This document shows positions 35,333 to 38,043 of a DNA stretch of 47,924 bases, piece after piece. Positions within the stretch are counted from its first letter, which is position 1, and every line of letters starts with the position of its first letter. The stretch comes from Thermodesulfobacteriales bacterium (lineage in GTDB: Bacteria > Desulfobacterota > Thermodesulfobacteria > Thermodesulfobacteriales > Thermodesulfatatoraceae): contig JALSKZ010000055.1 in the NCBI GenBank assembly GCA_026988575.1, positions 1-47,924 of the forward strand. Direction: 5' to 3'. Position numbers and translations under genes: made by a program. Under the pieces are notes generated by a model, which worked only from the letters and a program-made list of their open reading frames with translations, ran no database searches and was not told the origin of the DNA.

Positions 35333-36364
35333 ATGGCTGAGTATTTAAGACAATTTTTTATTGCGCTTCTGCTGCTGATAATCCTACTCTTTGTAGGTAC
35401 GCTGGGATATTATCTTTTGGAAGGGTGGTCACTTTTAGATGCGTTTTATATGACGGTAATAACTATTTCCACCGTCGGTTTTGGAGAAGTTCATCCCCTT
35501 ACTAATGCCGGTCGTTTGTTCACCATCTTCTTAATTCTAGGCGGTGTAGGGGTAGCTATTTATGTTTTTTCGGCGGTTACAGAGGTCATGGTCTCTGGAC
35601 AGATCCAAAACATTCTGGGGCGAAGACGCCTAGAATATAAGATTGAGAACCTTAAAGAGCATTACATCATCTGTGGTTACGGACGCATTGGCCATCATAT
35701 TTGTCATCTTATTGCCCGAGAACTACCCTTTGTAGTGGTGGAAAACGATCCCGAACGGATCAAGGCCTTGGAAGAAAGTGGATTTATCTTTTATCAAGGG
35801 GATGCAACCAACGAAGACATCCTGAAACGCGTAGGCATAGAAAGGGCCAAAGGGTTGGTTGCGGTCCTGGGTTCTGATGCAGATAACGTTTATATTAGCC
35901 TTACCGCCAGGAGTCTTAACCCCGAACTTTTTATAATAGCCCGTGCCGATGAAGATCACGTGGTACGCAAACTTCAGCGGGCAGGGGCCAACAAGGTTGT
36001 ATCCCCTTACCTGATTGGAGCCCGTCGGATGGCCATGACCATATTAAGGCCTGCGGTAACCGACTTTTTGGAGCTAGCCACTCCCGAGGCCAATCTTGAA
36101 TTGCAACTCGAAGAAGTGCGCATTACCTCTCAGTCTGGTTTAGTGGGTAAAAAACTGATTGAAAGCGGTATACGTCAATTTTCCGGGGCTATTATCCTGG
36201 CTGTCCGTAAGATTACCGGGCAGATGATCTTCAATCCCCCACCCGATTATATCATAGAAGCCGGAGATACCCTGGTAGCTCTAGGGGATCGTAAAGGTCT
36301 TTTGCGCCTAGAAGAGGTAGCGTCGGGTAAAAAAGGATTAAAAAACTTTAGAAAAAGTTCCTAA
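35333..36364 (+). CDS. Two-TM potassium channel with RCK (TrkA-N/TrkA-C) domains
   Basis: A 343-residue MthK-like channel subunit. TM1 spans about 7-27, the pore loop has the selectivity filter TVGFGE (47-52), TM2 about 62-83. The RCK domain starts at YIICGYGRIGHHI (111-123), a Rossmann fold with the ligand-binding GxGxxG, and a TrkA-C domain (about 255-335) follows. Four subunits would make a K+ channel gated by cytoplasmic ligand (Ca2+, nucleotide or redox in relatives). The ATG lies 4 bases after pgi. Convergent overlap of 27 bases with fthC. Confidence 0.93.
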   Translation: MAEYLRQFFIALLLLIILLFVGTLGYYLLEGWSLLDAFYMTVITISTVGFGEVHPLTNAGRLFTIFLILGGVGVAIYVFSAVTEVMVSGQIQNILGRRRLEYKIENLKEHYIICGYGRIGHHICHLIARELPFVVVENDPERIKALEESGFIFYQGDATNEDILKRVGIERAKGLVAVLGSDADNVYISLTARSLNPELFIIARADEDHVVRKLQRAGANKVVSPYLIGARRMAMTILRPAVTDFLELATPEANLELQLEEVRITSQSGLVGKKLIESGIRQFSGAIILAVRKITGQMIFNPPPDYIIEAGDTLVALGDRKGLLRLEEVASGKKGLKNFRKSS

Positions 36365-36916
36365 AAGACCGAATTCGGTGATGACCACATCCATACGCAC
36401 ATCGTGGGGAGCAAGCGGTAGCTCGGGAAATATTTGACAGGCAAAGGCCAAGGCCGCCCGAGGCACTTCGGGGGCCTTAATTAACAAACGATCGTAAAAA
36501 CCCCCGCCATAACCTATTCTGCCTCCTAAGGAGTCAAAGGCCACCCCTGGACAAATAATAAGGTCTAGCTCGCTTGGGTCGATCTGGTCACTACGGGGTG
36601 AGGGTTCTAAAATCCCATAGGCCCCAGGGAATAGTTCCCCAAAGTGACGTAGACGATGTATAGCCAATTTTTGGAGCCTTACTAGGGTGCGTGGCAAATA
36701 GATTTCCTTATTTTGGGCCAAGGCCGCCCTTAACAAGGGCCAGGTCTCTACTTCGTCTCTAAAAGAGGCGTAAAGCAATATTTTTTGGGCCCTGATAAAG
36801 GGCAACCATTGAAGGACACGTCCAGTGATACACCGGCTCTTTTGCCAGCGCGCCCGGGGAGAAAGGGTCGCGCGTAAATTCAAGGCCCGCTTTCGAAACT
36901 GTATTTTCTGGTCCAT
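36338..36916 (-). CDS. fthC: 5-formyltetrahydrofolate cyclo-ligase
   Basis: A 192-residue ATP-dependent enzyme that recycles 5-formyl-THF to 5,10-methenyl-THF in the folate pool. It has the N-terminal QFRKRALNLRATLSP and the nucleotide-binding GGRIGYGGGFYDR (131-143), with ICPGVAFD just before. Length is normal. Its 3' end overlaps the potassium channel gene by 27 bases. The region upstream carries an inverted-repeat element (36948-37143) that lies between this gene and the divergent rmuC-like gene, so promoter signals are hard to tell. In gammaproteobacteria the gene follows 6S RNA; I could not recognise one here. Confidence 0.94.
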   Translation of the reverse strand: MDQKIQFRKRALNLRATLSPRARWQKSRCITGRVLQWLPFIRAQKILLYASFRDEVETWPLLRAALAQNKEIYLPRTLVRLQKLAIHRLRHFGELFPGAYGILEPSPRSDQIDPSELDLIICPGVAFDSLGGRIGYGGGFYDRLLIKAPEVPRAALAFACQIFPELPLAPHDVRMDVVITEFGLLGTFSKVF

Positions 36917-36947
36917 AATTTATTACCAAAACACAAAACAAATGACA

Positions 36948-37143
36948 CTTTGCCATTGTCATGGCAAAGCGCCTCTGCCCCGTAATGGCGAGCAAATGCC
37001 CATTACGTGTCATGGCGAAGCATGAAGTGCCGGAACAATCTCAGAGTGGATCTAGATCGCCACGGCAGGCTTTGCCCGCCTCACGCCATACAACGACAGG
37101 TACAAGTATAGACGCACGGATATACAGATCGCCTTGCCATGAC
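36948..37143. repeat. Degenerate palindromic dispersed repeat (MITE/REP-like)
   Basis: The 290-base gap 36917-37206 holds no gene but several inverted repeats: CTTTGCCAT-TGTC-ATGGCAAAG (36948-36969), CGTAATGG (36981-36988) with CCATTACG (37000-37007), GGCAGGC-TTT-GCCCGCC (37064-37080), and an outer pair GTCATGGCGAAGC (37009-37021) with GCCTTGCCATGAC (37131-37143), matching at 11 Watson-Crick positions plus one wobble. GTCATGGC occurs twice in direct orientation (36958, 37009). The stretch CAATCTCAGAGTGGATC is familiar from a palindromic repeat scattered in many bacterial genomes. Only one copy is in the window. No protein is encoded, so mobility would depend on a helper. Confidence 0.6.
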
Positions 37144-37206
37144 TTTGTTTAGCATAAAAATTGCTTCCGTAATAGTATATGGAAACAAAAAGTTGAGGGG
37201 AACACA

Positions 37207-38043
37207 ATGGGTATTGATCTGTGGATATGTTTAGGCATATTTTTTTTGTTTTTACTGTCCTATTTGGGGCTATGGCAGTGGCTGCGCTGGCAAATACGCC
37301 TTTGGGAAACACAATTAAAACACTTAGAGCTCAATCTACAGGAATTGGGCCACCAAGTTGTCGATAAAGAGTTGCCCCAGCTACGTCGCTGCCTAGAAGA
37401 AACCCGGGCAGAACTCCACCAAATAACTAATATTATCGCTGGTCGACAGTCGGGCGCGGCCATGGAAAGGGCCTTAGAAAAGGCCCTTTCCCTCCTGCCT
37501 CAGGGATGGATTTTGCGTAATGTGGACCTAGGCCCTGGGCGCGTAGAATTTGCCCTCAAGCTTCCTGGTGGCTATTTGGTACCTGTGGACAGTAAATTTA
37601 TTGACCTAGGAGAAGAAAAGATCACGCCTGGGGAGATCAAACACCGGTTAAAAACGCGTGTAGAGGAAGTACGTAAATATCTGACCGACCCCCGTACTAT
37701 AGGATTTGCTGTGGTAGTAGTACCCGAAGGGGTCTATCCCCTGTGTCGTTCAATATTGGCCTCCCTGGCTGAACAATGTCTAATTGTGGTCTCCCAAAAA
37801 GAGCTCCTTCCTGTATTGTCGGCAACATATCTCCTGGCCCAATATTTAGGCATATCTCAAGACCTGGAAGAAACAAAAAAAGAACTCCTCCAGGCCCAAG
37901 AGGCCTCAAAGAGAGCTCTGGCCTCCTTGGCCAAACAACAAAACGCCTTGGTCCAGCTAGGAAATAGACGTGAAGAAGTATGGCGGGAATTAGGGCTCAT
38001 AGAACGAATTTTAAGCCGTCTTACCGGCAAAGGGGCTTTTTAG
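37207..38043 (+). CDS. RmuC-like protein with N-terminal membrane anchor
   Basis: A 278-residue protein: one hydrophobic helix (4-22), a coiled coil (about 28-80), and a domain with the RmuC pattern: GRQSGAAMERALEKALSLLP, then VEFALKLPGGYLVPVDSKF (near 118-136), where DSK fits the PD-(D/E)xK nuclease-like core. A second coiled coil covers about 222-262. RmuC proteins limit rearrangements at inverted repeats in E. coli, but biochemical action is unproved. This one is shorter than E. coli RmuC (about 475 residues). It starts after GAGGGG at 6 bases, next to the repeat element, and precedes a receiver and a RAM protein. Confidence 0.8.
   Translation: MGIDLWICLGIFFLFLLSYLGLWQWLRWQIRLWETQLKHLELNLQELGHQVVDKELPQLRRCLEETRAELHQITNIIAGRQSGAAMERALEKALSLLPQGWILRNVDLGPGRVEFALKLPGGYLVPVDSKFIDLGEEKITPGEIKHRLKTRVEEVRKYLTDPRTIGFAVVVVPEGVYPLCRSILASLAEQCLIVVSQKELLPVLSATYLLAQYLGISQDLEETKKELLQAQEASKRALASLAKQQNALVQLGNRREEVWRELGLIERILSRLTGKGAF

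Follow-up and report, generated by a model that had tools for sequence, protein, structure and literature searches.

A very probable decayed MITE related to IS630-family transposons between fthC and an rmuC-like gene in Thermodesulfobacteriales

The palindromic sequence lying between fthC and an rmuC-like gene in the genome of a Thermodesulfobacteriales bacterium (2.01 Mb in 88 contigs) is, with high confidence, a decayed copy of a MITE, related to IS630-family transposons but non-autonomous. It was examined in a window of 47,924 nucleotides, the whole stretch of DNA analysed here. An IS630-type transposase probably moved this element, since its ends match those of complete IS630-family elements. 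Such an enzyme would have cut and pasted copies in trans into TA targets, and the window copy would have inserted between the divergent fthC and rmuC genes and then decayed, so that it would now form nearly all of the sequence upstream of fthC.

Extent and parts of the window copy

The element filled positions 36921-37174, that is 254 of the 290 bases of the gap (36917-37206) that separates the divergent fthC and RmuC-like genes; this is wider than the interval 36948-37143 of the earlier note, and its right end was pushed from 37170 to 37174 by eye. Only 4 bases separated the fthC start codon from the element in our reading of the sequence, and 32 bases, including a GAGGGG motif seen by eye, lay between the element and the rmuC start codon. 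The sole ORFs overlapping the 254 bp were short (63-86 aa), and the element is without coding capacity except for such chance ORFs. The features are as follows.

36338-36916, minus strand: fthC, 5-formyltetrahydrofolate cyclo-ligase (PF01812, E=8.9e-38)
36921-37174, plus strand: whole element, very probably a degenerate MITE, 254 bp, with TATTAC... / ...GTAATA ends (left-end model R1 and right-end model R2)
36921-36967, plus strand: left end, TATTACC followed by CACAAAACAAATGACA...CATTGTCATGGCAA (left-end model R1)
36948-36969, plus strand: small perfect hairpin, CTTTGCCAT / ATGGCAAAG (inverted-repeat search)
36958-37019, plus strand: three direct repeats resembling GTCATnGCGAG, at 36958, 36982 and 37009 (24 and 27 bases apart)
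37036-37052, plus strand: CAATCTCAGAGTGGATC, inner part of the core palindrome (inside the stretch aligned to C76:22622-22731, 75% identity)
37054-37063, plus strand: AGATCGCCAC, second half of the core (comparison of copies)
37113-37174, minus strand: right end, TATTACGGAAGCA...TTTTTATGC...AAAGTCATGGCAAGGCGA (right-end model R2, matched at 37170-37113)
37133-37143, minus strand: closing arm, CTTGCCATGAC (inverted repeats)
37207-38043, plus strand: RmuC-like gene (PF02646, E=1.2e-7)

The end models were built from 23 rows (left, R1; 12 of them from the own genome) and 21 rows (right, R2), and the window copy was in neither. R1 matched the window at 36921-36967 on the plus strand (E=3.1e-8) and R2 at 37170-37113 on the minus strand (E=6.1e-7), so that both ends were found in the right order, orientation and spacing. 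A second R1 match (E=5.6) was the third GTCAT repeat. Together with the end alignments of the family, these matches give the element the terminal inverted repeats of a MITE; it is likewise short (254 bp) and devoid of a transposase gene.

The inverted repeats described in the earlier note were recovered at 36958-36971/37130-37143 (13 of 14 positions complementary), 36948-36956/36961-36969 (9 of 9), 36976-36988/37000-37012 (85%) and 37008-37018/37057-37067 (82%), and its familiar core, CAATCTCAGAGTGGATC, was indeed there. An additional outer pair, 36912-36933/37162-37183 (73%), fell outside the coordinates of that note. GTCATnGCGAG-like repeats spaced by 25-27 bases recurred in loci L002, L003, L005, L006 and L007.

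Copies in the own genome and in related genomes

With the gap as query, 18 matches at E<=10 came from its own genome, one of them the gap itself; the best of the others was 75% identical over query bases 50-153. The earlier note had held that an absence of other copies would speak against a repeat; comparison with the rest of the genome and with other genomes showed that other copies exist. Exact GTCATnGCGAG occurred at 49 sites, versus 1 for the reversed control, and 38 clusters or single exact motifs, including that of the window, were counted in the fetched loci. Fuller copies were bounded by TATTAC(T/C)RGGAGCACAAAACAGATGACATTTTGAACATT before the first motif and by inverted TATTAATGGGAGCATATTTTATCCGACAAAGT at the far side. 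This outer pattern alone gave 30 matches against 7 in controls (18 against 0 in a tighter form), several of which were inward-facing pairs. In the genome-wide scan R1 found 49 places at E<=1, among which the window copy ranked 18 (E=1.3e-6); 30 left ends had E<1e-3. Seven other two-ended copies of 137-367 bp were present in this genome, and two-ended copies overall were 136-367 bp long; multiple dispersed copies, as expected of a MITE, were thus found. Family alignments showed two conserved ends that are distinct, inverted to each other and fixed in position relative to the core.

Placement was assessed for 32 own-genome intervals on the basis of mechanical ORFs: overlap with retained ORFs stayed at 30 bases or less in 23, and 9 were within 10 bases of an ORF end, while 14 lay between tandem genes, 7 between divergent and 2 between convergent ones, 9 being unclassed. 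Motif copies near contig ends were observed in C15, C16, C17, C23, C26 and C47, which is expected if the repeat breaks assembly. Right-type ends at C23:4191, C23:6542, C49:6775, C86:28813 and C26:257 preceded another palindrome, GGATCCGTTYC...GGAACGGATCC, whole or in part, which is apparently nested in the element.

Searches with a complete copy gave matches in 8 of 41 genomes of the order, i.e. in 7 of the 10 family genomes (own included) and, weakly, in 1 of 31 outside the family; copy numbers in this search are lower bounds, some genomes having been scored on their first 20 candidates. The outer pattern was found in all 10 family genomes, mostly well above control. Three sister-genus genomes supplied 20 loci, picked among the matches to one copy, and 16 of these had both ends, 136-244 bp apart. 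AATTTTGCAAAGGTYTC-like sequences, which resemble the GAGACCTTTG ends discussed below, were seen in or beside sister-genus copies of genome G004 (L253, L245, L249, L251).

Termini were compared in 22 two-ended copies, composed of 14 of the 16 from the sister genus (L256 and L263 dropped), the seven from the own genome and the window copy. TA...TA termini occurred in 16 of the 22, which is partly a selection effect as a TATTA pattern was used in finding copies, and a further flanking repeat of at least 3 bp in one, the other 21 having none. In G004, a sister-genus genome, the gene following xseA encodes an M23 peptidase and harbours a copy in its 5' end (L319:1348-2358; PF01551, PF02601). The M23 frame ran open through it, about 64 residues being added near the putative signal peptide, and removal of 192 bp (the element and one TA) would, as judged by eye, also keep the frame. 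A net gain of 192 bp thus fits a TA duplication, and a duplication of TA is argued from the TA...TA termini and this one reading frame. At the same xseA-M23 locus, a related gene had about 42 extra bases in G005 and about 270 in G003. Rickettsia palindromic elements are described, in extracts of PMC10969869 and PMC3733652, as in-frame insertions in genes; like them, the G004 copy is palindromic and sits in a gene with the frame kept, a likeness of description. DNA comparison yielded no empty sites in the sister genus, where flanks had diverged (69-88% identity in short pieces) and xseA-M23 was the sole locus read across. For the window copy the comparison covered genomes of other genera, in which rmuC relatives were 28-40% identical, and the protein scan of genome contigs gave no empty site.

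IS630-type partner and alternative explanations

A DDE_3 gene of IS630 type occurred in 1 of the 10 family genomes, and none was found in the own genome by family search or protein search. When the DDE_3 protein was searched in 41 genomes of the class, five gave matches:

Complete or nearly complete IS630-type genes: G010, 5 places; G018, 4; G023, 1 (protein search)
Partial IS630-type genes: G009, a cut gene and two fragments; G005, a fragment; G023, a fragment (protein search)

The transposase, of about 350 aa, belongs to the IS630 family (NF033545, E=1.5e-76; DDE_3, PF13358, E=1.8e-43). Flank-aligned copies of the IS measured 1111 bp in G018 (n=4) and 1146 bp in G010 (n=5), with TATTAA/TTAATA at the termini of all nine. 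IS630 elements duplicate TA. The IS and the window element are alike in their TA termini and in carrying TATTAA...GCA...GACA-kind sequence at both ends; they differ in that the IS, 1111-1146 bp long, holds a transposase gene, whereas the window element has no gene and a palindromic core. Over 28 bases, the IS ends, which were placed with words copied from the flank-aligned IS sequences, agreed with the left or right MITE consensus at 19-22 positions, and none of 20000 shuffles was as good, whichever of the five distinct IS ends was taken. Up to 22 of 28 positions are therefore shared between the TATTAMTRGGAGCA... ends of the element and those of complete IS630-family elements, which come from two genomes of the order. 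One G010 copy of the IS also contained TATTAATGGGAGCAGAAAATACTCGACA.

The end models behaved unequally on the IS. R1 matched an end in 5 of 11 searched IS loci (E 2e-4 to 3e-4, all in G010). R2 was poorer: its one good match, again in G010 (4.4e-5), lay beside the IS and was not the IS's own end, and locus L323 gave only E 0.037 and 1.1. Neither model matched the G009 IS locus, L280. An autonomous element with the same ends was thus found, but in other genera of the order and not in the own genome. The IS-bearing genomes G010 and G018 gave no MITE match in the DNA search; MITE and IS were found together only in G009 and G005, where the IS is cut or fragmentary, and no complete IS was found in MITE-rich genomes. 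The family's one DDE_3 gene, that of G009, was rejected as an intact partner, as it is cut by the contig end and has no end-model match; its locus displayed two TIR-pattern matches (up to 3 mismatches), one of them about 117 bases beyond the gene. No inward TIR pairs 1-3 kb apart were noticed by eye among the family-genome matches listed. Two observations concern the surroundings of IS630-type genes. A short stretch with MITE-like ends lay directly beside one G010 copy (L326:2183-2276; R2 E=4.4e-5 at 2274-2247), and a second transposase gene, DDE_Tnp_1 (PF01609, E=1.2e-6), adjoined the IS630-type gene of G009 (L280:432-1361).

The sequence might be viewed instead as a BIME-like cluster of REPs moved by a RAYT (REP-associated tyrosine transposase), its TATTAMTRGGAGCA ends being incidental. 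Its palindromic units are modular, GTCATnGCGAG repeats stand in tandem 24-27 bases apart, no target duplication extends beyond TA and the own genome holds a Y1_Tnp gene. Yet, the ends are conserved, fixed relative to the core and matched by an IS630 element, and that Y1_Tnp (RAYT-like) gene, the sole one found in the genome (L009:1174-2016, contig C33), carries a different repeat, GGGGACAGGC, at about 1079, 1438, 1724 and 1846 of L009, before and within its reading frame. A RAYT as direct partner was accordingly discarded, the element flanking no RAYT gene. TGTCAT at 37008 does carry the tag of CGTC-tagged REPs (CGTC or TGTC, then AT), and both those REPs and the window palindrome have an xGTCAT start, head-to-head pairs and a distribution over several phyla, and for neither was a dedicated transposase found (extracts of PMC3733652). 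According to the same extracts, however, CGTC-tagged units are of 20-40 bp with stems of 8-9 bp and loops of 4-5 bases, whereas here a single arm is unfolded and longer terminal repeats enclose the pair; as DNA, neither the intact C75 arm (z +2.0) nor the window arm (z +0.4) gave the REP-type hairpin. This alternative was judged very unlikely.

Expression of a small RNA or a structured regulatory RNA from the gap was given a lower probability still, although the minus strand folds strongly (for 211 nt z -5.6, equalled by 0 of 200 shuffles; for the whole 254 bp z -6.7, 60 shuffles) and bears a terminator-like hairpin (36973-36944). The plus strand folded more weakly (z about -2), folds of other copies were uneven (z from -6.8 to +1.1), and promoter-like (1 vs 0.7) and terminator-like sites (1 vs 0.8) did not exceed their numbers in shuffles. 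The earlier note had itself named a structured RNA such as 6S as the identification that would count against its reading; Rfam gave nothing at gathering level over the whole window and, on the gap, one chance-level match (8.6 bits against a cutoff of 55), so that 6S and other Rfam RNAs were dismissed for want of a covariance-model match at gathering score. In our folding models a long hairpin can arise from the palindrome, chiefly on the minus strand, and a full palindrome unit from elsewhere (L317) reached z -7.1; the core unit of the window alone (37007-37092, plus-strand DNA) folded no better than shuffles (z -0.4), which marks the window copy as degenerate. Least probable was a site acted on by the adjacent RmuC-like protein, a connection which the earlier note had suggested from the effect of E. 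coli RmuC on inversions at short inverted repeats. Adjacency speaks for it, but the protein was matched in 1 of 10 family genomes, the own one, while the element was found in 6 of the 9 others and at many other places of the own genome. A decayed MITE related to IS630-family transposons thus remained the preferred reading.

The core palindrome in other phyla and its possible carriers

The earlier note had also seen here a degenerate palindromic repeat scattered in many bacteria. This was borne out for the central palindrome, which is merely the interior of a 254-bp element whose own terminal inverted repeats match an IS630-type transposon. Exact matches to the 29-base arm GTCATnGCGAGCGAAGCGAAGCAATCTCA, which is also exact in the own genome at C75, came from at least 115 stretches in contigs of GTDB genomes. 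Among the matches listed were Omnitrophota, Chloroflexi, Nitrospirae, Deltaproteobacteria, Bacteroidetes, Planctomycetes, Parcubacteria, Calditrichota and others, as well as Campylobacter, the cyanobacterium Scytonema and Thermodesulfatator autotrophicus, many records being MAG contigs in which binning errors are possible. Palindrome units were taken from 80 loci where a closing arm and 80 bases of flank were available; of these 47 units, 16 were surrounded by outer inverted repeats scoring at least 12, versus 1.5 expected from swapped flanks, although some of the 16 (L115, L122, L148) look like further palindrome copies. The outer repeat GAGACCTTTGnAnAA gave 282 matches in six genomes (15 to 90 per genome, control 0), which had been chosen from the 80 loci mostly because such ends were seen there. 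No ORF cluster extended over more than 7 of the 80 loci and none was identified by family search, and a recurrent transposase neighbour of the palindrome was rejected for these loci.

A second kind of carrier appeared in Deltaproteobacteria MAGs. Thirteen short GAGACCTTTG-ended elements with both flanks were present among 30 loci listed, two of them nested in one locus (L293), and 9 of the 13 had direct repeats of at least 5 bp, versus 3 of 156 swapped flanks. The GTCATnGCGAG core occurred in three of them, two with such direct repeats, and others had other interiors. Like the window element, these MITEs are small (100-195 bp) with terminal inverted repeats, and one of them, L317, holds the identical 29-base palindrome arm; they differ in terminal repeats that are unrelated to those of the window element and in 5-bp duplications. 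Since the core was found inside GAGACCTTTG elements too, at least two kinds of MITE enclose the palindrome. Across L291-L318 (genomes G041-G046), GAGACCTTTG-ended MITEs displayed interchangeable interiors, including GTCATTGCGAG, GTCATTCCCGCGG, GTCATACCGGCGG and GTCATTTCGAGG palindromes.

We tentatively propose, at somewhat less than even probability, that the GTCATTGCGAG...GCAATCTCA palindrome travels as a passenger module and lacks its own transposase; it would have spread within and between phyla because MITEs belonging to different transposon families repeatedly took it up into their interiors. As part of this proposal, the carrier would be of IS630 type in Thermodesulfatatoraceae (TATTAMTRGGAGCA ends, TA), while GAGACCTTTG ends and 5-bp duplications suggest another transposase in Deltaproteobacteria. 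The IS630 partner makes this more probable, as it distinguishes the two carriers.

A MITE holding a REP, multi-phylum CGTC-tagged palindromes and in-frame palindromic insertions are already known. QMITE2 of Coxiella burnetii is described, in extracts of PMC5896051, as a MITE of 150-190 bp holding a repetitive extragenic palindrome; it and the window element are both small MITEs containing a palindrome, but QMITE2 has a GTAG-type palindrome and direct repeats of 7-11 nt, whereas the window element has GTCATTGCGAG and nothing beyond TA. CGTC-tagged REPs occur in several phyla and, in the extracts of PMC3733652, no dedicated transposase was found for them, the question whether RAYTs or other transposases mobilise such repeats being left open there. 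Among the matches listed, this palindrome was not found under any name in open-licence literature, and sequence-word searches gave no title on such bacterial repeats.

Our results interpret an unexplained gap as very probably a transposon fossil, name its probable mobiliser and remove the RmuC hypothesis. An arm identical over 29 bases across phyla, inside different terminal repeats, suggests a testable answer to the CGTC mobilisation question raised in the extracts of PMC3733652. If true, the passenger nature of the palindrome would explain the spread of CGTC-kind palindromes that are said in print, as far as those extracts go, to have no dedicated transposase.
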